64,000 nt of DNA, from contig NC_133216.1 of assembly GCF_040436345.1 (NCBI RefSeq), positions 226,001 to 290,000 of the forward strand. Direction: 5' to 3'. The notes below the pieces were generated by a model. The model was not told the origin of the DNA, searched no databases, and was given only the letters and a program-made list of their open reading frames with translations. The DNA comes from Pagrus major (Eukaryota; Chordata; Actinopteri; Spariformes; Sparidae). Shown here piece after piece: positions 3,982 through 46,500 of this stretch. The translations under genes were made by a program, and so were the position numbers. Position 1 is the stretch's first letter. The number at the start of each line of letters is the position of its first letter.

Positions 3982-4911
3982 ATGATAAACTCTACACAGG
4001 TTTCATATTTCATTCTTGCTGCCTACTTTGACAATGGAACTTTGAAATACTTATATTTTATGATTGTCATGTGTTTATATATTTTTATTGTCAGTGCCAA
4101 CCTGCTGCTCATTGTGGTTATCTGTATGAACAGAAGCTTACATGAACCTATGTACATGTTCCTGTGCAGCCTGTTTGTAAATGAACTGTATGGTAGTTCA
4201 GGGTTGTTTCCGTTCCTTCTGCTTCAGATTCTCTCTGACATTCACACTGTTTCTGCTTCAGTTTGTTTCTTGCAGATATTTTGTGTACACTCTTATGGAG
4301 CTGTTGAATATTTAAACTTAGCCATCATGTCTTATGACAGATATCTTGCTATCTGTTGTCCTCTGCAATATAACACACGTATGACATTTAAGAAGATTGC
4401 CATTCTTATTGCTTTAACATGGTTATATCCTTGTTTTGCAATGGTTGTTTTGTTGTCTTTGAGTACCCCTTTACAGTTATGTGGGAACATCATCAACAAA
4501 GTGTACTGTGCTACCCACTCTGTTGTTAAGTTGGCCTGCTCTGACACCAGTTTAATCAACATATATGGACTCATTGCCACTTTTGGCACAATCCTTGGTG
4601 CTTTGCTTTTAATTCTCTACACGTACATGAGGATTCTTAAAGTTTGTTTCTCCGGCTCTAAACAGACGAGACAGAAAGCCGTCAGTACCTGCACACCTCA
4701 CCTCGCTTCTCTGCTCAACTTCTCTTTTGGGGCTAGCTTTGAAATATTACAGAGCAGGTTTGATATGAACACTCTACCCAATATGCTGCGAATTTTTTTA
4801 TCATTATATTTTCTTACATGCCAGCCACTTTTTAACCCTGTAATGTATGGCCTGAAAATGTCCAAAATCCGTCTCACATGTAAACGTCTGTTATCAAAAG
4901 CAGACTATTAA
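3982..4911 (+). CDS. Olfactory receptor (subfamily A), 309 aa, tandem copy 2
   Basis: Odorant GPCR nearly identical to the gene at 10-939, with the same hallmarks: LHEPMY, MSYDRYLAIC, KAVSTCTPHL and NPVMY, seven hydrophobic segments and no breaks. Differences from copy 1 cluster in two places. One is around the start of TM3 (residues about 101-115: V, A and I changes). The other is TM7 (residues about 252-293), where the DNA instead resembles the third, transposon-split OR. Codons before and after the TM7 patch match copy 1, which looks like a gene-conversion tract. The start is fixed by the acceptor at 3974 and by identity with the paralogues. Confidence 0.95.
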   Translation: MINSTQVSYFILAAYFDNGTLKYLYFMIVMCLYIFIVSANLLLIVVICMNRSLHEPMYMFLCSLFVNELYGSSGLFPFLLLQILSDIHTVSASVCFLQIFCVHSYGAVEYLNLAIMSYDRYLAICCPLQYNTRMTFKKIAILIALTWLYPCFAMVVLLSLSTPLQLCGNIINKVYCATHSVVKLACSDTSLINIYGLIATFGTILGALLLILYTYMRILKVCFSGSKQTRQKAVSTCTPHLASLLNFSFGASFEILQSRFDMNTLPNMLRIFLSLYFLTCQPLFNPVMYGLKMSKIRLTCKRLLSKADY

Positions 4912-8014: not shown

Positions 8015-8398
8015 ATGATAAACTCTACACAGGTTTCATATTTCATTCTTGCTGCCTACTTTGACAATGGAACTTTGAAATACTTATATTTTATGATTGT
8101 CATGTGTTTATATATTTTTATTGTCAGTGCAAATCTTCTGCTCATTGTGGTTATCTGTATGAACAGAAGCTTACATGAACCTATGTACATGTTCCTGTGC
8201 AGCCTGTTTGTAAATGAACTGTATGGTAGTTCAGGGTTGTTTCCGTTCCTTCTGACTCAGATTCTCTCTGACATTCACACTATTTCTGCTTCTCTTTGTT
8301 TGCTGCAGATTTATTGCGTGCACACTTATGGAGGTGTTGAATATTTAAACTTAGCCGTCATGTCTTATGACAGATATCTTGCTATCTGTTATCCTCTA

Positions 8399-8413
8399 CA
8401 CTGTAAAAAAAAA
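8399..8413. repeat. Left terminal inverted repeat of the CACTA element
   Basis: CACTGTAAAAAAAAA, preceded by the TA duplicate. It matches the reverse complement of the right end. Confidence 0.85.
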
Positions 8414-8567
8414 AATCCTAAAAAAACGGTAATTTTCCGGCAGCTGGGGCGCCAGAAAAATATTGTGAAATAACGGAAAATTACTTTCTCATAAAAATAC
8501 AGTTTTTTTCCATAATTAAAATACAGTTTTTAGTTGTAATTTTAACAAGATTTTGCCTCATTTTAAA

Positions 8568-9088
8568 AACATTTTCACATTTTAAAACAATTAAATTACC
8601 TAAAAATATGGTAAGTAAATGCTGGATTACGAATAATAATGCTTAAATTTACAGAAATGTGCTGTTTTTAATTGGTTTAATGACATTATTTTATGTAAAG
8701 AAGTTGTATAATAATTTGTGTTTGATGTAATAAAACAGTATATGACACAAAAATAATGTGATTCATCTTTCAAATTATATCAAAAAACTGTAGAAAAACT
8801 AGATATTGGGTTTAAAATTGCAAGAATTTACCATTTTTAGATCATATCAAATGTTATTTTACGTTGTTTTTAACGTTTAATTACAAACATTTTACGTTTT
8901 AAAACAATTAAGTTACCCATAAAGATGGTAAATTAACATTGTAATATGAATAATAATGCTTAAATTTACAGAAATGTGCTGTTATTAGTTGGTTTTAATG
9001 GCATTGTTTTATGTAAAAAAACTGTATATTACTTTATATTAGATGTAATATAACACAATAATTTGATTAATCTTTCAAAACATGCCAA
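8568..9088. repeat. Subterminal direct duplication in the CACTA element
   Basis: Two copies of a roughly 200-bp AT-rich block (8568-8790 and 8887-9088), offset by about 317 bp and sharing TTAAATTTACAGAAATGTGC. Short ACAGTTTTT-type words recur near the element end. In CACTA elements such subterminal repeats are binding sites for element-encoded protein; that role here is inference. Confidence 0.65.
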
Positions 9089-9431
9089 AAAGACTTAACT
9101 CCACGTTGGGTGTACATTTTTTTCCTTTTACATTAATTTCCTGAATATTTAAAAGGACGTTCAACTAAAAATTCCTCACCTAATAACACCAGAATTATTT
9201 TTTATTTTAAATGGTTTAAACTGTTTTTTGGCCAGTGGGAAAAGGGGCTTAAATGAATTGTTGTACTCAAATGAGAGTAAGCTGAACAAGAACAGCTACA
9301 ATTTTCCATTTTCAGTATTTTTATTGTAACAGGTAACCATTATTATAGCAATATGACTCTGAAACAACTGATTTGGAAATGAAAGAAAAGTTAAAAAAAA
9401 AAGTTGAGTTACCAATTCAGTGTTATTTCTA

Positions 9432-9718
9432 TCCAAGGTATCCATAACTTGGTCAAGTCACTGTACTGTACATCCACAACATGGATTACAAGCCTACATT
9501 AAACCTCACTGTAAATTAATCCACACTATCCAAGTCATCCATAACCTGGTCAAGTGACCATACATTCAAAACATTGATAACAAACTTAGTCAAACCTCAC
9601 TGTAAATGAATACACACTCTATCCAAGTCATCCATAACCTGGTCAAGTAACCATAAATCCACAACATTGATTACAGACTTTGTCAAACCTCATTAGAACA
9701 TTGATAACAAAGCTACAT
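9432..9718. repeat. Three-copy minisatellite, about 95-bp unit
   Basis: Three tandem units starting ATCCAAG at about 9432, 9528 and 9619, each with CCATAACCTGGTCAAG and a variant of CATTGATTACA, diverged by several changes each. The array lies just beyond the stop codon of the SAM-domain gene, in its probable 3'-UTR or the subterminal zone. Confidence 0.75.
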
Positions 9719-9805
9719 AACAAATAGCTTACATGAAACCTCACTTGACATTAATCCACAATAGTCTGTGACTTAGACAAAGTATCCATAACTTGTGAGC
9801 ACTTC

Positions 9806-12800
9806 TTATTCCCTCCACTCGTAGTCTGCAATTTTGGTGATGAGTGTGAGAACCTTTGGACTGACGGCAAGTTGTTTTTTGGTGGCGTTCCGCTCCACTT
9901 TTGATCCCTTGTCTGGATTTATCTTGAAGAGGCACCTGTCAAATGAAAAAAAAAACAACTTTAGTAAGTGTGGACTGTACTGTAATGTAATGTTGTCATA
10001 CATTTGCAAAAAAGTTACACAACAGTGTAGACAGAGCTTGCTTGTGAAAGAGTATTTGGACATACAGGAACTTTGGAACAGTGATGTAATGAAAAGATTA
10101 ACATGTGAGTACTGTGTATGTGAATTGTGTATGAATGTGTTTGAATGTTTGAAGGTGGTCAGAGGGGGTTTGGTGTGAAATGGCAGCCACGCTTCCCTCA
10201 GTCTGCCCCAGGGCAGCTGTGGCTACAAACGTAGCTTACCACCACTGGTAAGAATGTGTATGAATGAATAATGGTTTCTGTAAAGCGCTTTAGGTGATTG
10301 AAAAGCACTATATAAATCCAAGCCATTATTACTGTTATTAGTATTAGTATTAGTATTAGTACTATTTCAGGGAGAATAACGTAACTTCGGTCAGGAGGAT
10401 CTGCTACTCAAAGGTTTCTTGGGCATTTGAGTTTTGTTTTGTCATTATTTCATAAATAAGAATTAACAAGCACGTGTTTCTGTAACTTGACATGAGCATG
10501 AATCAAGGATAAATAAGAGACACAGTCAGTCTAAAAACCTGAAAAACAAAAATGAACTCTCAGGTAAAGTTTGGACCATTTTCATCCAGTAGGGGGCAGT
10601 TTTCACATCATTTTTTAGTGATAGATTAGTGATAGAAGAGGTCAATAATACATTGTCCTACTCAGTGTATGGGTCAATCTTTCATAACTCAATCAGAAAA
10701 AGAGAAAATAAGGTTGTTTTTCTCTTACAATAAAATCAGAACATTAAAATGAAGTTTTTGATTTTATTATTTTGTTATTGTGGCCTTTTGATAAATTCAG
10801 GAAATGCCTGGAGACTTGTGGAAGTACAGGTGCTTTACTTTCAGCCTACATGCACAGCAGGAAAGCCTGACCGGAGATCTATCTGCCAACTGCCTGCAGA
10901 CTGCAACTACTCATGGCAGGAGACGGGTCTCCCAGACCGGACAGGACCCAGCACCATCTTCAGTAAAGTTCCTCCAGCCTCCTGAGATTAATAACATTAT
11001 CCAACAGCTGAGCAGAACAGTAAACTAACTTCAGCCCACAGAAATATCCACAACACAGGTCCATCTCGGCAGCTCCACGCTGCTTCTCTCCGCGACCCAA
11101 CTCCACCTCCTAGTGGGGCCTCCTCAGTGGCAGTGCTGGCTCCTGTCTGGTCTGAGTGATTCCTGGCATGAGTGCTCATGCACAGTCAGGCTTTCCTGCT
11201 CTGCATGTAGGCTGAAAGTAAAGCACCTGCACCTCCACAAATCTCTAAGCATTCCCCCAAATAAATATAATATCCAAATAAAATAAATTGATGGGTGGAT
11301 CATGAACTTAAAGGTGTGAGAATGTACCACATTGTGACCAACAGGTGAGTATTTCAGCATTTCAGCACTTGAGCAGTGCTCAGTTTTACAGTATGTGCAT
11401 TATATATCTTATTTTGATGTATTGAATTGACTAGTGGTGTCTTACCTCTGTAAGAACTCCAAAGTTGATGCTTGGGCTGCTGGGTAAGATATGTTCATAC
11501 AGTAGTACGAACCAAACATCAGCAAAAGAGCATCACTGAAGATTCTGATGTGGCCATTCACAATGGTCTGGTCAACAGACAGCATGAAATTCTCTGCCGC
11601 CAAAGTCGAGTTTCCTGTTGTGTACAGGGACAAGAGAAGGACAAGAGAAAAATACAATTAAATTATCATCTTACAACTGAGTCCAGTACAACAATAACAA
11701 AGTAATAGTACTAATAGTTTTCTGTTTTTTGGTTTTAATTTATTGTGGTGGAGAAAGATAAATATTCATACCGCAAACAACAATACATGGTGTACTTGGA
11801 AGTCCAGCACAGTCCACTTCAGAGGGCAGGGTTGTTTGATCCACTTTGTAGAACATCTGTTCTTCTTCTTCATTGAAGTACTTGAGGAGTAGTGGAAGAA
11901 ACACAGCAACATTCACATCTGCAGCATTTTTGCTTGATGTTTCCATTTCCCTGAAGATGGTCTCCATCTTCCCTGGCTTGTCAGCCGATTTAAGAAATGA
12001 AATGACTCTGGCACATTTATTTGCTATGTTTTTGTCTTCCATGTCCACACCTGTAAGCTCTTTAAAATGAGTCTTCATGCCAGTTGTCTCAAACAGATAT
12101 GGCCATTCCTTTATCAAGTCAGAAGTCTCAGTCCCACTGATAATGTCCTTTCTCTGAGTGAAGAAAGTGACTCTCATCATATTCTCAATGGCTTTGCTGT
12201 CACAGCATCTTTCTCTCCACATTTTCTTTAACTCTTCTTGTGCATGTTTCTGAGATTCAGGGGTTTCATCAGGTGGCAGCTGTGTTGGTTGCCAGTTTGT
12301 ACACCCATAAGTGTCTAGTCTTTTTTTCTGAGTTGGGGTATCCTCTCCTTCACTGTTGCTAATACTTTGTCTCTTTAACGAAAGTGAAGTGTTTCCTCTC
12401 TTGAGGTTGTCCACTCTGCTGACCATCTGTTTGGTGAGTGAGTCATATCCACTGCCTACAACTTCACCTTCAATGACATCAGTAAATGCCACAGGGTAGG
12501 CCTTTGTCATCTTCCTTGCTATCTCACTGATATGTTTCTTCCCAGGTGTTGGGCACATGGTTAAGATTTCACTGACAATGAGCCGTATGATTTCAAGTCT
12601 ATCACTTTTTGTTGGCCGCTTTCCCCTTTCCAACTTTCTGATGATCTCAGATGGAATCTTCTGCCAAGGAATTTGAAATTTAAAATGCCAGCTGTTGTCA
12701 GACAGTCGACGAGGTGTGATATCTGTACTTGAACTACTTGTTGACCGTGGTGAACTTGGAGTTTCTGAGCTGTAACCACCTGGAGAGAACACAGAGAACA

Positions 12801-14563
12801 TTAGCTGTTATTAAATAATAGGTGGGTTTTCATTAAGCCTTTTTCCTCTTTCGGGATGTTGGTTCCAGGCAAAACTATATAGAAATGACTGTCATTTGTC
12901 CTCTTTTTTTTGCAGTGTTCAGACCGAGACTTAATGGTAGTGAGATGCGCTGAGTCAAGGCTTCAACACCCATGGTTCTGGTCGAATTTTATTTTTCAGA
13001 CCCATAAAGAACTTGTACTTACTTACTGATGCAACAGTTAAAGCTATCCAATTTTACACATTGTATAATGTAACATGCATAATTTTAACTCAAACATCTA
13101 TATTTCCACAAATAGTCAGTGGATATCATTTTAACCCCAGCATGTAGTTAGTAGTCCTGATACTGATTGCAGTAATGGAAATGGGAGGAAAAGAAAACAA
13201 CTAAGCACAGCAACAGTGGAAATATTACCTGCATGGTCACATGGGTGAGTTCATGAGTTTTCTTTATCAGCATTGGGCTGAAAATTTTCATTTTTTCTCT
13301 TACTGTTGTTGGCTGGGAGAACTGACTGTTTTTGTTGTGTGTTTTTATTCTTTTGTTAGGTTGGAGCTTTTATTGAGTCTGAAAACATTTACAAGTGATC
13401 CAGTTTACGAGCCAGGACCAGGATAAAGGTGCAAGAATATCCAGCCTTTTCCAACACCACAGCAGTCACACTAGAGATGACACTGTTGCTTTGGGACAGA
13501 CAAGCTTGCGAGATCTCAATATAACACACCACATAGAGTAGCAAAGAAAATACACATCAGACTGACTATACATGGGAACTAAATGAACAACACATTCTTG
13601 TTGGGGGGATTGCTACTGGTGGATACAAAAGTCATTTTTTTCTGTACATTGTAATAAAATATCCTGTGTTCATCCCTGATTAGTTGTGTGTGATTTGCTA
13701 CCGAATCAGAATCTAGAGAAGATAGACCCAACTTATGATACTGATTTATAGGCACACTGTCAATTCACTGCTGGTGATTGTACTATATTACAGTTAGTTA
13801 CTGGTAGATTATAAAATGTTTCAGCCCATCTAACCCAAAAGAATGATTCTGTGCAATAAATGCATATACTCACCAGAAAGGGCCATCTCGTCAGACTGTG
13901 CTACTGGACTTGTACTGGTGCTGGCTCTGCTGAAATGTTGGTTGCTCTGGTTGCTTGGAGGACTGTCCAAGACATCTTGCTGGCCTTAATAAAGGAGAGA
14001 TAGTAGTAATATTTAAACCATACAGACATCACATTGCTCAATCTGGGTATATTAATACCCAACATAATTATATACTCAGTAGCCAATTGATATATTTCAA
14101 AGTGTTCCTTTCTCAATATAATGCAGTACAGTACACCACCACTAACACTCACTATGAAATCAATAATGAACAACGTATAGTTTATAGTTATCACCTTTTT
14201 GAAAACATCAACAAAAATGTAGAGAAGATTCTTTGAAGTATAATTCATAGTAGAACTGCTGTATTGGACTGCATTAATTTGAACAGGTGTACCTAATAAG
14301 TATATTTTGACTTTGTACATTTTTCTAATGTGAAAGTTTATTATGTACAAATTGAAACACATACTTTTCTTTTTGAGCAGTGACAGAAGTTTCCTGGCTT
14401 CAACTGGTCTCAGGACAGAAAGGAGGTCACTCTCCTGCAGGTAGCTCAGGTCCTCCAGGTCCTCAACTCCTAAACCTTGCAGATGCTCCAGCAAAGGCTC
14501 AGGGTCTCTCAGTTTAGGAAGACTTGATTTGATGAAAGACAGGAGCGGACTTTCTGTATCCAT
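9806..14563 (-). CDS. SAM-domain protein, SAMD3-like, five exons, 538 aa, transposon-borne
   Basis: Five exons join in frame on the minus strand: 14563-14365, 13984-13874, 12779-11772, 11614-11446 and 9935-9806. All four introns are GT-AG (donors GTATGT, GTGAGT, GTATGA, GTAAGA; acceptors TTAAG, CTCCAG, ACAACAG, TTGACAG). Phases agree throughout and the exons total 1617 nt. Residues 1-66 form a SAM fold (MDTESPLLSFIKSSLPKL..., ending ARKLLSLLKK). A Ser/Thr/Pro linker follows, then a charged helical region with KKHISEIARKMTKAYP, then a hydrophobic C-terminal segment ending DYEWRE. This layout matches fish proteins annotated 'sterile alpha motif domain-containing protein 3-like'. The gene lies wholly inside the CACTA element, next to the transposase and on the same strand, so I infer it is the element's accessory protein. 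An alternative upstream ATG lies at 14605. Its biochemical role is unknown. Confidence 0.8.
10180..10362 (+). repeat. SINE/LINE-tail-like repeat in intron 4 of the SAM gene
   Basis: Contains GTAAAGCGCTTTAGGTGATT followed by a TATAAATCC-type end and an ATT/AGT-rich tail, a very common dispersed repeat end in fish. It is nested inside the CACTA element. Confidence 0.5.
10803..11255. repeat. Imperfect inverted repeat, 65-bp arms
   Basis: The arm at about 10803-10871 and the arm at about 11185-11255 are inverted copies, both containing AGGTGCTTTACTTTCAGCCT in opposite orientation. About 310 bp separate them. The structure lies within intron 4 of the SAM-domain gene. It could be a nested small MITE or an intronic hairpin. 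Confidence 0.6.
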
Positions 14564-14637
14564 GACTAGGAGGACTAGAAGGGATGAAAAATACTGCTCA
14601 AGCATTACTGTCAGATTTTAATCTCTCAAACTCCAGA

Positions 14638-17292
14638 TTACTCTGAGTCAACAATGCTATGCTTAAGTGAAATTACCCTTGTCCCACAAAGGTTGTACAC
14701 AGGCAAAGGATAATAATCTAGTTTCTGCTCAGGCTTCCAACATTTCATGCTCTGCCTTGCTTGTTTCACTTCATACAATGCAAACGCTGGCATGTAGGAC
14801 ACGTCATGAGGTGTCACGATAAAGTACACATGCTGGTCCTGCGTCACAAGCATGAGCTCAATCTGTCCGAATTCAAGTGCCTCACCTTGGTTTAAACACA
14901 GAAAGAGTCCCTTTTTGTACTGAGTGCCTTTCCACTGCACCTCTGTAGCTGACTCAACTTTGGGTTCTTTGACTAAGGTTTCTCCTACTGCAGAGCGCAC
15001 TGCTTCGCTGTACAGTTCAGCATGGAAAGGAGTGGAGTTCTTAACCACCAATGAGGGTGCAAAAAAGGAGCCGGAATGTAGGTATGCCTGCAGTAGCTGA
15101 TGGTTCTTTGCAAGTGTGTGACATACATTTTTGAAGTTTTGTGTCCTTCGCACACATCTTTTGAAATATGAATGCTTGCTCTCAAACCTCATTGTCCACA
15201 GCCGAATGAGTGGGCCAAACTTTAGTATTAATGCAGGGTAGTGGGTGAGGTAATGATGCTTTGGTTTTAGTTTTTGTGAAGGAAAACATTCTTTCCTTCC
15301 TTCCAGATAATCACCGATCAAAACACTGAGCAATGCAACCTGGGGTACTGATATAGTAGGGGCACATATCAGTTCCACTAACTCTTTCAGCTGGACAGTC
15401 AGTTGCCATACAGGATCCTCTGTGTCTGTGATCTTTTCACCAATGATAATGGGGAGAAGTCTCAGCAAAGACCAGTTTTCTGTTGCCTGGCCACCTAATT
15501 TCACACCCTTCTCTGAAACTTCAGCTGGTTTAGAGCTACCATCAGATCCCTGGTAACTAAACTGTTTGATCCTTCGATTAAGCTGTGAATATGTGAAGAA
15601 TTTCTTCACCTTGACAAAATGGTTCAGGTAAATGGCAAGGTCAAATGCCACGACACCCTCAAAGAGATCATGGCCAATACAGGGTGGGAGGCCTGGCTGG
15701 CAAACATGAAAAAATGTCAGTGAATTAAAGACAGAGTTACATTTCACACCTCTGACTACACTTGCATCACCATTTTGCAGTTCTTGAACAGTGTCATTGT
15801 ACTCTTGTACTGTACGGATTGGAGCATGGTGTTCCAAATTGTCTAGCTCACTTCTGGTTACATGACAATATCGGCAGAAATGTTGAGATGTACTGAAATT
15901 TTCTGTGAATCCACCAATGTTATGTGACCCTAAATTGTCACCGGCAATGCAAAAGACAGTTGCCTTAACAATGTTTCCAGAGATATTCAGTCCATTTGTC
16001 TCCAGTTCTCCAAGATCGGTTATCAATTGAGAGAACACTTTCTCGTGGCCAAAATATTTGAAATCAACTTCTCGGCACAAAAGCAAAAGCTGCAAGTTGT
16101 CAATAGTGGATCGATGAAAAGGTTCAAAATTTGCAAGAGTGAAGTAGACTCCAAGCATCTTATGTTTTTTCTTTGCCGAACCGAGGGGATTTACCACCTC
16201 AAAAGCATCTTGATAAAGTATCACTTTTAATGTGAGACCTGACTCAGCAAAAAGAGGATTGGACTTAAATACCGATCCATCACACACATCATTTAAAATA
16301 TGAGGTGTACTCTCATTCTCAGATGTAGAACCCTGTTCCAGCACATCAGTATTTTTTAGCAGAGTTGTCAATGTATGCTTTATGGGAACATACTGAGCAT
16401 ATTGCTCCTTTCTATTTTCATCAACCCCCCAAAAAATCGGTTGTGGATGCACGTATGGAAAATTCTCCTCAAAATACCGTTTTCTGTTGTAGTCTGTGGA
16501 AAGGGAGGAGCTGCAGGATCCATGAATATCTACATCATCTAGGGTCTTCAAAACATCTTCAATTTCAGTCTCAGATAGTTCAGTTTTTGTTTGAAGAGAT
16601 GCTTTCAGTTGACTTTTCGTGTACTGCAGGCACATTCCATTAAGACTATTCAGTTCTTCTACGATCAACTGGATTGTAGAGGAAGGGATAAGTTGTTTGG
16701 CCTGTAGTTTCATATAAAACATGCACAGATTTTTCATGTACAAACTTTTCATTTGTGCAAGGTCTGGGACATCTGCCTCAGGCTCATCATCAGCTGACCC
16801 TTCATTTGCCTGGCTTTCAGCAACAGAGGACTGAGACTCACTAGGAACTGAAGGAGGGCAGTATGCACCAGAGACATGCAGAGCTGTGGGGTTTTTGTGC
16901 TTCCTAGATAGGTGGGCTGTGAAAGATGATGTCACTGAAAAAGTTTTATCACAGTCTTTAAAGGGGCAATGCACTACCTCTCTTCTTGAAATGTGAGATT
17001 TTAGGTGACAGAGAAGGTCTTTAAGGTCGATCAACTGTTTCTGACAATGTGGAAGCTGACATAGAAAGGGTGCCTGCAAAGTTTGAGACTGTGACACGGT
17101 AGATGACCGCCGATGATGGCGGTAAACATGACATTTATAAGCATTGTAATTTCTGAACCGAAACTTACAACTTTCCATACAACATGCATACTGATAATGT
17201 GGCTCATTTTTATGAAGCCCTTGATGCATCACGTACCCTTTTAGGGTATTCACTGAAGCACCACAACTATGACAGGTGTAATGTTTTGACAT
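14638..17292 (-). CDS. CACTA/EnSpm transposase with N-terminal C2H2 zinc fingers, 884 aa
   Basis: Transposase expected to bind the element ends and cut and rejoin DNA in the nucleus. Residues about 6-135 hold roughly four C2H2-type fingers (CHSCGASVNTLKGYVMHQ..., CQLPHC..., CPFKDC...H). The catalytic core shows the Tnp2-like signatures AGDNLGSHNIGGF followed by CRYC, then GHDLFEG, then KPKHHYLTHYPALILKFGPL, with the acidic MRFESKHSYFKR further on. The nearest in-frame ATG gives MSKHYTCHSC; the frame extends eight codons upstream, but that start would be GTG. A strong acceptor (pyrimidine tract then CTGCAG) ends at 17355, so a 5' leader exon is likely. The stop is 33 bp before the nearest ATG of the SAM-domain gene. 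One uninterrupted frame with no degradation argues for recent activity. Confidence 0.85.
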   Translation of the reverse strand: MSKHYTCHSCGASVNTLKGYVMHQGLHKNEPHYQYACCMESCKFRFRNYNAYKCHVYRHHRRSSTVSQSQTLQAPFLCQLPHCQKQLIDLKDLLCHLKSHISRREVVHCPFKDCDKTFSVTSSFTAHLSRKHKNPTALHVSGAYCPPSVPSESQSSVAESQANEGSADDEPEADVPDLAQMKSLYMKNLCMFYMKLQAKQLIPSSTIQLIVEELNSLNGMCLQYTKSQLKASLQTKTELSETEIEDVLKTLDDVDIHGSCSSSLSTDYNRKRYFEENFPYVHPQPIFWGVDENRKEQYAQYVPIKHTLTTLLKNTDVLEQGSTSENESTPHILNDVCDGSVFKSNPLFAESGLTLKVILYQDAFEVVNPLGSAKKKHKMLGVYFTLANFEPFHRSTIDNLQLLLLCREVDFKYFGHEKVFSQLITDLGELETNGLNISGNIVKATVFCIAGDNLGSHNIGGFTENFSTSQHFCRYCHVTRSELDNLEHHAPIRTVQEYNDTVQELQNGDASVVRGVKCNSVFNSLTFFHVCQPGLPPCIGHDLFEGVVAFDLAIYLNHFVKVKKFFTYSQLNRRIKQFSYQGSDGSSKPAEVSEKGVKLGGQATENWSLLRLLPIIIGEKITDTEDPVWQLTVQLKELVELICAPTISVPQVALLSVLIGDYLEGRKECFPSQKLKPKHHYLTHYPALILKFGPLIRLWTMRFESKHSYFKRCVRRTQNFKNVCHTLAKNHQLLQAYLHSGSFFAPSLVVKNSTPFHAELYSEAVRSAVGETLVKEPKVESATEVQWKGTQYKKGLFLCLNQGEALEFGQIELMLVTQDQHVYFIVTPHDVSYMPAFALYEVKQARQSMKCWKPEQKLDYYPLPVYNLCGTRVISLKHSIVDSE

Positions 17293-18194
17293 CCTTAACT
17301 GCAGTGCAGTACTCACTTTTTCAGTTTACTCCATGAAATCAACTCATCATTTATCTGCAGAGAGAAAGAAAAAAATAAAAACACATTTATGAAACATGAA
17401 ATTTGCCAAAATCAAAATAAATGCTATTGACTGTGAAATAGTTAACCTAAACTGTGTTCGCCAATCTCCCCTCAATTAACTAAAAGATGACCATTAGCTT
17501 ATCCTTTACATATTTTTCAGTATTGTTTGAATTTCATGTTGACCAGTGACTAGTGTTGCACCAAAATGAAGATTTGAAAAACCTTGAAAAAGGCAAGAGG
17601 AAGATCAAAAAATTTGTTTTAAGAAAGAGTAACTGGTTGAAATAAACCATTACCAAATCTCAGTATCATTTATAAAATATCTGTTCTCTCTTCTTTGGAA
17701 GAAAGTACACTTAAAATGGCTCTGAGCACTCGTGAAAAGAAAGGAACAGGTGGGGGCTAGAAGAGTTTTTTTTTTTTTTTTTTGCAATAGTGGATTATTG
17801 ACGTTAGAAAAAAATTCAAAACCAGATATTGAAAAGTTACATAAAATTAAGCTTCCTATTCTAGCCAAAAATCATGGCATTTCAAGTCATACAGTGGAAG
17901 TTATGGACAAAAAAACTAGTGAAAATGTATCTGTTCATTGTTGCAGCTCTAAACAACTGTTCATCCTTTTCTCCGCCTGTGTCAGTTAGTTCGCAAAAGC
18001 AAACGCAATGGCAAGGTAAAGTTAGTAGCTGGTCTGGCTGAATACTACAGTAAATGCAGCTGGCAGACGCCGGCGGCCATGCTTTTGGCATCATAGTTAG
18101 CTAACATTTCAATTGACAACATGCCGGCGTATTCTGTGCCTTTTGCGGAGTGAGTAAACTCAGAGGCATGGTGGTAAATAAAACTAATGCTACT
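17293..18194 (-). other. Probable leader intron of the transposase transcript
   Basis: Non-coding sequence between the CpG-rich block and the transposase. It contains the acceptor at 17355-17356 and a poly-T run at about 17767-17783. A weak donor (GTATCA) sits at 18211. The intron assignment is inference. Confidence 0.35.
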
Positions 18195-18375
18195 CAGCTT
18201 CAGTTTGATACTTGCCGTCTACCGTCGTCCTTCCTCGAGCCTCGACGTTAGCTGCTGTCCGCACAAAGTTCTGTCGGGCGAGCAGGAAGTCTGGAACCGC
18301 AACCGCGGCGCGTTGGTTGTTGATCTTGCTCAAGTGTCACGTCGAAACAGCTGATCAACCCAAGCGGGAACCGCG
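18195..18375 (-). promoter_or_regulatory. CpG-rich promoter candidate of the CACTA element
   Basis: A short block dense in CpG (for example CCGCAACCGCGGCGCG near 18298) within otherwise very AT-rich transposon DNA, just upstream of the minus-strand genes. Its placement suits a shared promoter for transposase and SAM-domain gene. No TATA box is evident. Confidence 0.4.
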
Positions 18376-19022
18376 CTTTTTTTTTTTTTTTTTAACTTTA
18401 TTCACAGAAATGTCCAGAACAATACTGTTGTGCCAGGGAAGAAAAAAAAAATGCTTTATTGAAAGCATTTAATTGCAGCTCACTTAGTGCTGATGCTGCA
18501 TCAGTTCAAGTCCAACTCTTTATTATTCACCCTCTCAAGCTTTCCCCTTTCCCTGTGTCTCTTTAGATGTCCTTTCAAAATAAATATAATTTATTAATAT
18601 AATGTTACCATCTAGAAATGAGAGTAATTGTATTTATTTTCAATGAAAATATTAGTCAAATAACAAAGAAATTATAGTAAAATTACAAATTTTTACTATT
18701 AATTCCTCAGTAATTTTAAATTATTTTTTCCTCTTTTTTAGGGTTTTAAAGTTGAATTTTACAGTTTATTCCCTTAAATAACAGACAAATATTTGTGAAT
18801 TTACGATACATTTGTGAATGTATTTTAACAATAAATATATGTATTTCTAATGGGTTTTTTTTGTAAAAGAACAGAAATATAGTGTATTTTCACAGTTACA
18901 GTTATTTAATGTTATTTTACATTTGACATGTAAAAACACAGTCTATTTTTGTAAATTAAATGGTATTTTAAAAATACAGAAAAAATCTGTAAAATAGACA
19001 GTAAAATTCTGTTATATTACAA

Positions 19023-19037
19023 TTTTTTTTTACAGTG
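19023..19037. repeat. Right terminal inverted repeat of the CACTA element
   Basis: TTTTTTTTTACAGTG, the inverted complement of the left end, followed by the TA target duplicate and then OR coding sequence. Confidence 0.85.
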
Positions 19038-19585
19038 TACAATATACCACACGTATGACATATAACAAGATTGCCCTGCTTATTGCTTTAACATGGTTAT
19101 ATCCTTTGCTTGCATGCATTGTGATAATATATTTGAATTCCCAGTCACAGCTGTGTGGGAACATCATTCTTAAAGTTTACTGTGATAGCCACTCTGTTGT
19201 CAAGCTGGCTTGTTCAGATGCCCATGCAGTTAATATATATGGACTCCTCGTATCTTTCGGCACAATCTTTGGTACTTTAATTTTTATTATTTACACATAC
19301 ATTAAGATTTTTCTAGTGTGTTTTTCTGGCTCTAAACAAACAAGACAGAAAGCTGTCAGTACCTGCACACCTCACCTTGCTTCCCTCTTTAACTTTTCTT
19401 TTGGTTGCTACTTTGAGTCATTACAGAGCAGGTTTGATATGAAAAGTTTACCCAATATGTTGCGAATTTTTCTATCATTATATTTTCTTACATGCCAGCC
19501 ACTTTTTAACCCTGTAATGTATGGCCTGAAATTGTCCAAAATCAGTGTCATAAGTAAAAATCTCATATCAAATTTCAGCTTTTGA

Positions 19586-43534: not shown

Positions 43535-46500
43535 AACAATTTCAGTTTATTTGATAGGGACAATGCAGGTTAACATAGTAACACTTCCACTTGTTACAAA
43601 CAATTCAATGTGACTGATGTTCTGCATACAGAGATTATAGCCAATGCTAGTTTCCAACTCCCGTCCCTAGTTAGGCTTTTAGTAAAAGAAAGAGGGTAAG
43701 AAAAAAGACATCAAAATTACATACCAATACAATAAAATGTACAATACATCTAAAATCATACCAAGTCATGACCCATTAAAAATGCATACAGCTCTGATTT
43801 TGTTTCAGCCAGACTTTAACATTTTTATTAAAAATCCTAATGTCTCAGGTTAGTTTTATTTCGGTTGGTAGTGAGTTCCACATCTGGGAACCCTTTATAG
43901 AGAAGGCTGATTGCCCAAAGGAGGTCTTACGGCGCAAGATTTTACAATTACCACTTGCTGTACCCCTGGTGATCCTATCACTATTTTGGCTGCTAAAAAG
44001 ACTGCACAAAACATCTGGTGCCAAGTTCTGCAAACACTTAAAAAACAGTTTAACAGAGGAAAATTTTAGGAAATTATCAAAACTAAGCAAATTATACTGC
44101 TTCAAAATGTGACAGTGATGCCACCTTATTGGTTTCTTGGCCATTATTTTTAAGGTTTGATTATACATAGATGCAATTAACTTAATTGTAGTCGGAGAGG
44201 CCTGACTCCACACTGTAACACAATACGACATATGAGAAAAAATCATGGCATGCATATAAAGCTGTGCCGCTTTGATTGGTATATGATGTCTAATTAGTTT
44301 GAAGCAATTTAAATTGTTTTTTACTGTTTTTGATATCTTTTTGACATGTTTGTCAAATTTGAGTCTGGAATCCAAAACTACACACAAATATTTAAAATCC
44401 TTTACCATCTCAATTTCCTCTCCCTGCAATGTTATGCAAAATTTTTCTGATTGTGGTATGTTTTTGATGGAGAAGCACATGGAAACTGTCTTTTTCTTAT
44501 TTAGGGTGAGCTTGTTATCATATAGCCAATGACAGACCCTGCTCAAAAATGAAGATAATATCTCAGCTGCCTCACTTGATGTCTTTGCTGACGCGTATAT
44601 GACTGTGTCGTCTGCATAAAGCTGACAACCAGCCCCCGGACAGCTTTCGGGCAGGTCGTTAATGTAAAGACTAAAGAGCAACGGCCCCAGGATTGAGCCT
44701 TGAGGAATGCCAATTTTATTTTGTTGAGGAGCAGACTTTTTTTGGTCAATTCTCACACATTGCTTTCTTGAATGTAAATAGGAAGCAAACCAACTAAGAG
44801 CTTGTTTGGAAAAATTTAATTTTGACAACTTTGATAGCAGGATGTCGTGGTTGTCAGTGTCAAACGCCTTCTTTAGGTCGAGAAACACTGCACCCACGAC
44901 ATTACCCCATCCATAAAACACTTCAGATTTTCGACAAAAGAGCAAATTGCTGTTTCTGTGGAGTGTTTATGTCTAAACCCAAACTGCTCAGGATATAAAA
45001 GTTGGTTTGACTCTAAATAATCAACTAGTTGTTCTGTCACAACTTTTTCCAAAATCTTTGACATTGCAGGGAGTATAGAGATTGGACGATAATTGCATAG
45101 CTGGTCTGTGTCCCCTGATTTAAAAATGGGAGAGACAACAGCTGTTTTCCATTGATCTAGAAACCTACCTGACATTATAGAAAGATTTATTAGATGAGTT
45201 AATGGTTTTATGATAGAGGAACTATGCTGCTTAATAAAAGCTGTGTCCAAGTTAGACACATCTTGGGATTTTGAGCTAGTTAATTTGTCTAATATTTTGC
45301 TGATTTTAGTTTCGTTGACCTCTCTGATGTAAAATGAATTGGGTAAATCTTCCCTTACAATGTTATTTAGTAATAGAGGGTCAAAACTTTGAGCAAGTTC
45401 CTCTACTGATTGAATAAAAAAACGATTAAACTCGGCTGCAATAAGCGTACTATCTGTTGTGGGTTGTCCACCGATCTTCAGCTCTCTTATCTTATTATGC
45501 TTGGGTTCTTTATTTGTTAGTTTGTTTAAATGCTTCCAAAGGGATGCAGAGTTGCCTTTGGCCTCCTCTATTAACTGAGAAAAATAGGAGGCTTTTGCCT
45601 TTCTTAAAACCATTGTCACTTTATTTCTAAGTCCTTTGTAAGTAAGAAGATCAGTGGACAATCCACTTGACAGAGCTGTTTTGAGAGCAAGATCTCTTTT
45701 TTTCATAAGTAGGAAGATCTCACTGTTTAACCAGGGTAGGCGAGTCTTCCTCTGCGAATGTTTCATTTTCACAGTGTATTTCTCCACCATCCTGGTTAAG
45801 CTATCAGTCAATGAATTGCAACATGTATCAACATCATCCATTTGCAGAGTATTGTCCCAGTTAATTTCTTTAATATCCTTCTCCATCTGTATGATTTTAG
45901 TCTTGGGGATTCCCATTTTTGTTTTTTCTGAAACTTTACAGGGATATATCTGGAGGCGTTTTTTTGATAGTGTCCTTACAGCCAAGGTCATGTTATGGTC
46001 AGATAATCCCGTTATTAAATTATATATTTTTGTTATCTGTTCCTCTCTATTAGTGAAAATGAGATCAATCAAGGTTTTACTATTTCTAGTTATTCTTGTG
46101 GGTGAGTTGACCATTTGTTGGAAGTTGTATTTGGACATGATTGTTTTCAATTTTTGTTTACTTTTCTTGTCCAGCCAATTGATGTTATAGTCCCCATATA
46201 TAATAGTCTCTGATTTGTAATCAAGCTTTTTCATAACATCTTGCAAATCTTTGTAAAAAGAAACATTGTGTGATGGGGGGTTATACAAAATCACAATACT
46301 GAAATTAGTCTGAGGTGATAAAACTACATTCAGAGCAAGACATTCAAGAGAGGTGTTTAGTTGTATTTCATTACAATTAAGGGTATCTCTGATATAAATC
46401 AAAACACCCCCCTCCCTTGCCAAAAGATCTGTCCTTCCTGTAGCAATCATAACCAGGGATATTTATCATGTTTGTAGGAATATTATTATGAAGCCAAGTT

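Follow-up and report, generated by a model that had tools for sequence, protein, structure and literature searches.

A 64,000-bp stretch of Pagrus major DNA (the window; C2:226001-290000 of the genome searched, G000, 785,883,843 bases) contains, at positions 8399-19037, a complete CACTG-ended, CACTA-like DNA transposon of 10,639 bp. The element carries a transposase gene and a spliced second gene, here called the companion. Across a wider transposase family this second gene is a near-constant component, located downstream of the transposase and on the same strand. Sequence comparison further indicates that companions have a common core with either a SAM-like or a PB1 N-terminus, an arrangement that is new.

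The two genes of the element and their pairing

Positions are those of the window.

8399..19037, minus strand (that of its two genes): CACTA-like transposon, exact ends common to the C1 and C9 copies
8397..8398, unstranded: left target-site duplication, TA (from sequence)
19038..19039, unstranded: right target-site duplication, TA (from sequence)
19023..19037, unstranded: 15-bp terminal inverted repeat, 5' end of the element in gene orientation, same in 4/4 copies
8399..8413, unstranded: 15-bp terminal inverted repeat, 3' end of the element, same in 4/4 copies
14638..17292, minus strand: transposase, 884 residues from the first ATG (17292) to the stop at 14638; single exon, open frame beginning upstream of the ATG
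14365..14563, minus strand: companion exon 1, SAM-like domain (gene model, predicted fold)
13874..13984, minus strand: companion exon 2 (gene model, copies, fish proteins)
11772..12779, minus strand: companion exon 3, core (gene model, genome search)
11446..11614, minus strand: companion exon 4, core (gene model, fish proteins)
9806..9935, minus strand: companion exon 5, core, and stop (gene model, fish proteins)

The element starts with CACTGTAAAAAAAAA... at 8399, ends with ...TTTTTTTTTACAGTG at 19037 and is flanked by TA on both sides. Its inverted ends read CACTGT(A)9 over 15 bp in all four copies and begin with CACT(A/G), as defined for CACTA/EnSpm (CMC/CMCT) elements. Two more full-length copies (C1:14114230-14124904 and C9:22888634-22899323) have identical start and stop bases and TA/TA flanks, and are 99.1-100% identical to the window copy in blocks. 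A fourth copy on C7, examined at its two ends, is flanked by CA/CA. The target duplication was 2 bp in 4/4 copies, TA three times and CA once. The 39-mer at the 5' terminus of the element was located at four genome places (C1, C2, C7 and C9) with no more than 3 mismatches, and its reversed control at 0. Transposase matches and companion exon 3 at 100% were present in all four copies. The C7 transposase is broken, being split across two frames and interrupted by one TGA.

The companion gene begins 74 bp downstream of the transposase and comprises five exons on the minus strand, encoding 538 residues plus a stop, with four predicted GT-AG introns of phases 1, 1, 1 and 2. The C1 and C9 copies have four of the exons without change and a single base difference in exon 2. 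Gene models from other fish cover the companion at 100% with identity up to 90%. The five that were aligned are free of gaps at all four exon junctions; in one of them a gap of a single residue lies 7 residues away from a junction. Companion residues 100-538 are identical to an annotated Pagrus major protein. Chance open frames are an unlikely source of the gene, given the five models with gap-free junctions. A host gene beside an insertion is excluded, as the companion lies between exact ends in three full copies. An earlier note on this stretch had described a two-gene CACTA element holding a complete spliced gene, with consistent phases and four GT-AG introns, inside the transposon and collinear with the transposase; the exact ends, the five-exon gene, its 538-residue product and the fish models bear this out. 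Companions from two distantly related fish, P0001 (Gadus) and P0002 (Limanda), are 90% identical to the window companion over full length, which may reflect horizontal transfer or recent spread.

Constancy of the pairing was measured across the genome. Of 625 transposase candidates, 51 matches were scored and merged into 50 sites; companion matches numbered 45 with the SAM-type query and 126 with the PB1-type query. At 48/50 scored transposase sites a companion was located downstream at a distance of 0.04-3.6 kb and on the transposase strand. Same-strand companion matches up to 6 kb upstream were present at 2 of the 50, and matches on the opposite strand at 0. The pairing held over transposases as low as 31% identical. 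The two exceptions are L013, where a SAM-like stretch shares the open frame of the transposase, and L014, which is decayed. The earlier note had allowed that other copies might lack the gene; it is present in all four family copies as well as at these paired sites of the wider group. Among 240 listed database proteins, 12 (from 11 fish genera) were fused models with transposase followed by companion sequence. Transposase sequence was found in 1/120 listed PB1-type proteins (P0350, not named SAMD3-like).

Exon 3 of the SAM-type gene was located at 35 genome sites. A scored transposase was nearby at 18 of these, always upstream on the same strand, where the chance of one was approximately 0.0016 per site. 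The remaining sites comprised 5 with transposase remnants in the flank, 8 with none within 1.5 kb and 4 that were not fetched. These counts go part of the way against the possibility, raised previously, that SAMD3-like genes mostly stand alone. Merging the matches of both companion queries gave 133 sites, a scored transposase being present at 48; the others cannot be called solitary, because most transposase candidates (all but the 51/625) were unscored. At two sites, L039 (C17:2076472-2077437) and L041 (C21:31723643-31724572), the core exon is open and a transposase is absent from the surrounding 1.5 kb; these companion copies may be solitary, tamed or just truncated. No ends of PB1-type families were found within the fetched 1.5 kb.

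The ratio of nonsynonymous to synonymous substitution (dN/dS) in the companion core is well under 1. By simple counting, 7/10 pairs gave 0.12, 0.12, 0.13, 0.19, 0.29, 0.31 and 0.47; the other 3 were saturated, several copies were decayed, and the largest dS used (2.3) was near saturation. Co-divergence of the two gene trees, as proposed earlier, was supported by pairwise identities. For the PB1 type, r was 0.62 (28 pairs of 8 loci), a value reached in 8/5000 permutations; for the SAM type, r was 0.85 (15 pairs of 6 loci), reached in 71/5000.

Companion domains and SAMD3-like names

Companions share a core of approximately 400 residues (E 2e-22). In front of it stands either a SAM-like or a PB1 domain, and these two N-terminal domains are unrelated. 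This N-terminal type switches once on the transposase tree. The middle region is basic (isoelectric point 9.4).

For the window companion, the Pfam SAM_TNK match scored 15.8 bits (E 0.015), below the curated cut-off of 25. Among 72 relatives, 6 had SAM matches at E 0.01 or lower, the best being 0.0014. Structures were predicted for the fish homologues P0001 (Gadus) and P0241 (Acanthopagrus). A sequence-profile search of solved structures with the SAM-like, PB1-like and whole-companion profiles returned nothing convincing, and with Foldseek neither the SAM-type nor the PB1-type model had a match that reached E 0.001. Further structural comparison dealt in the main with residues 267-345 of the SAM model and, for the PB1 model, with its N-terminal domain. 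Together, the sub-cut-off Pfam matches and the predicted fold point weakly to a SAM-like N-terminus.

The cousin companions have a PB1 fold with its acidic cluster and basic lysine. The lysine was conserved in 57/58 proteins, Asp55 in 58/58 and Glu70 in 55/58. Two-faced PB1 domains, which have both the basic lysine and the acidic residues, can self-assemble, and the retained residues are as expected of such a domain.

The PB1-type protein search gave 588 hits, of which 120 were listed; names were counted by eye and were partly cut. Of the 120 listed, 15 were named SAMD3 or SAMD3-like and 17 'PB1 domain-containing'. On the SAM-type list (120 of 137) the name SAMD3 was absent, three proteins were 'SAM domain-containing' and most were 'uncharacterized' or unnamed. 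The previous description of the companion as a SAM-domain (SAMD3-like) gene is not exact: the SAMD3 name is absent from the 120 listed, and the putative SAM domain is drawn from a sub-cut-off Pfam match and a predicted fold. Among the names listed, and judged by sequence, the fish proteins called SAMD3-like are PB1-type cousins of the window companion. Models named 'sterile alpha motif domain-containing protein 3-like' were found by the PB1-type profile and share the companion core, but start with PB1 and not with SAM. Since relatives of the transposon nearly always carry a partner gene of this kind, fish SAMD3-like genes are likely often to be transposon genes. The same proposal in the earlier note was right in substance, although it applies to these PB1-type cousins (15/120 listed) and not to the SAM type.

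The SAMD3 name on PB1-type cousins, a matter of database names alone, hints that SAMD3 itself shares the companion core. A broader proposal is tentative, and we hold it to be rather less probable than its opposite: that an animal CACTA-like clade depends on a protein with this core and a swappable polymerising SAM or PB1 domain, that fish 'SAMD3-like' genes belong to it, and that vertebrate SAMD3 came from a tamed SAM-type companion.

Transposase class, insertion site and neighbouring features

The transposase has C2H2-like fingers followed by D, D, C-x2-C, H-x3-H and E, the residues of the CMCT signature (PMC12730594; papers are cited here by PMC number). These residues were invariant in 68/68 aligned rows, and also in a 36-row alignment that included 7 rows from the PB1-type side. 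Pfam tnp2 (PF02992) gave no match in the window transposase protein. It matched 12/36 relatives weakly at E up to 0.1 (best 0.003), and two sites of this transposase group at E 9e-4, below the cut-off. On these sequence features the element was filed as CACTA-like in the CMC/CMCT (EnSpm) sense; its 2-bp duplication is an exception to the plant rule. A separate transposase set, at 9 loci of G000 (e.g. C21:6277753 and C24:4748305), scored above the tnp2 cut-off.

A protein of the sea cucumber Holothuria leucospilota (P0202) is 42% identical to the transposase across 99% of its length, so the transposase family reaches beyond vertebrates. A second family in the genome (family B) has copies on C6 and C19 that are 99.8% alike, with the 3' end TTACAGTG and a transposase 46-47% identical to that of the window family. 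On its 5' side the shared break showed no inverted repeat, and the two copies were without matching flanks. The 3' ends of the window family (8399-8470) and of family B (L066) both keep a GC-rich CTGGC...CAGCTGCC near the terminus.

The window element is located inside an olfactory-receptor gene of a receptor cluster. The interrupted gene and the repeats near the 3' end of the element are as follows.

8015..8398, plus strand: interrupted olfactory-receptor gene, first part (frame restoration)
19040..19585, plus strand: interrupted olfactory-receptor gene, second part (frame restoration)
8535..9060, unstranded: subterminal direct repeat, two units approximately 317 bp apart (repeats D1 and D5)
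9429..9692, unstranded: subterminal direct repeats, three units with a period of approximately 93-97 bp (repeats D2, D3 and D8)

Removal of the element together with one TA restored a single open receptor frame of 309 codons, whereas retention of both TA broke the frame. The restored receptor is 80.6-80.9% identical to its neighbours at 10-936 and 3982-4908. From the receptor frame, open but for the element, and from the close likeness of the copies, we infer that the insertion is recent. Three sites carry copies that are nearly identical and have both genes open, which points to an element that was probably recently active in a vertebrate genome.

Beyond its two halves, the interrupted receptor has eleven other matches across window positions 1-64000; ten are near full length, the two neighbours included, and one is a 66-residue piece. 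A 102-nt inverted repeat at 10770-11286 (79% complementary, 313 nt between the arms) lies in the last companion intron and may be a nested insertion. In its vicinity the C1 and C9 copies vary in length. Elsewhere in the window, two long overlapping open frames of 529 and 373 codons (43848-46462, minus strand) have by eye the look of a LINE-type retrotransposon.

Proposed role of the companion and known systems

Beyond a companion that is paired, constrained and domain-swapped, its mechanism is a matter that we infer. The reading we favour, to which we give somewhat better than even weight, is an accessory transposition protein, polymerised through its N-terminus and acting on the element ends or on the transposase. 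Both the SAM and the PB1 classes contain members that form head-to-tail polymers, which favours an oligomerising accessory protein. The N-terminal domain would polymerise the companion head to tail, and the basic middle region would contact subterminal element DNA or the transposase. The assembly might then assist in pairing the two ends or in loading the transposase, whose DDE site would do the cutting. Under this proposal SAM could be exchanged for PB1, since the requirement would be for polymerisation and not for a particular domain. The earlier note had suggested a possible fish counterpart of plant TnpA, which might for example oligomerise on subterminal repeats. TACAG/CTGTA is denser at the element ends than inside, yet exceeds shuffled sequence in both, so that the enrichment is not end-specific and lends weak support to action at the ends.

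A less probable role, and on balance an unlikely one, is that of an anti-silencing or expression-control factor, acting on the element's own promoter or chromatin to counter host repression and standing outside the cutting machinery. Pairing and constraint would suit such a factor. Maize TNPA reactivates a methylated promoter and represses an unmethylated one (PMC1636069), and the TET/JBP genes of fungal CACTA-like elements are thought to counter methylation (PMC12730594). Against it, Pfam scans of 72 and 58 companion members turned up neither chromatin-reader nor demethylase families at E up to 0.01; sequence alone, however, cannot separate this role from the accessory one.

Slightly less likely again is a companion that handles the transposase and not DNA, through nuclear import, stability or a limit on dosage by co-polymers. 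The Myb-like partner of Harbinger elements has in part such a role. The same-strand tandem order would permit joint expression, and annotation pipelines join both genes in the fused models (12/240 listed proteins), but these fusions may be annotation artefacts and any contact between the two proteins is putative. A captured host passenger without function for the element is very improbable: host-gene capture is known, as in Pack-type CACTA elements (PMC8616336), and 8/35 companion sites have no transposase within 1.5 kb, but the 48/50 pairing over transposases as low as 31% identical, the single type switch on the tree, the dN/dS of 0.12-0.47 in 7/10 pairs and the co-divergence all count against it.

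If the accessory-protein reading is true, animal CACTA-like elements would be two-protein machines like those of plants, with a different helper, in which a polymerising domain of one class was replaced during evolution by one of another class while the core stayed the same. The unclear role of the second CACTA protein would become testable by simple domain swaps. Many fish models named 'SAMD3-like' or 'uncharacterized' should then be treated as transposon genes and masked, and a possible origin for vertebrate SAMD3 would be at hand.

A literature search by listed titles, and through the accessible parts of PMC1636069, PMC9587614, PMC12730594 and PMC8616336, found no report of such a companion; Repbase entries may describe one. 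The plant CACTA/En-Spm elements (TnpA and TnpD) are alike in their short inverted ends starting with CACT, their second protein, the direct repeats near their ends and a DDE transposase with C(2)C and H(3-4)H motifs. Plant CACTA elements duplicate 3 bp of target, in contrast to the 2 bp here, which is at odds with the narrow plant sense of the class. The Pagrus element probably differs also in its kind of companion, made of a SAM-like or PB1 domain and a core of its own, and its tnp2 matches are weak. The CMCT clade allows duplications of 2-5 bp (PMC12730594). Spm makes both proteins by alternative splicing (PMC1636069), whereas the Pagrus element has a separate downstream gene.

SmTRC1 of Schistosoma and other animal TRC/CACTA elements are likewise animal and CACTA-like, with relatives reported in species including zebrafish and, for SmTRC1, spliced second products (PMC1636069). 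The second proteins of SmTRC1 differ in being without similarity to other animal elements, and SAM or PB1 domains are not mentioned for them in the accessible part of that paper. The EnSpm-like ESTA elements, which have TA duplications, and the CMCT clade differ in being fungal and in having a TET/JBP dioxygenase as the extra gene (PMC12730594). MUSTANG-B of plants, a group of tamed Mutator-like transposases, also joins PB1 to a transposon protein, but belongs to another superfamily, has PB1 on the transposase itself and consists of tamed host genes (PMC8616336). Harbinger elements similarly move by cut and paste and have a helper gene apart from that for the transposase (PMC12730594), although their transposase and their Myb/SANT-like second protein are unrelated to those of the Pagrus element.
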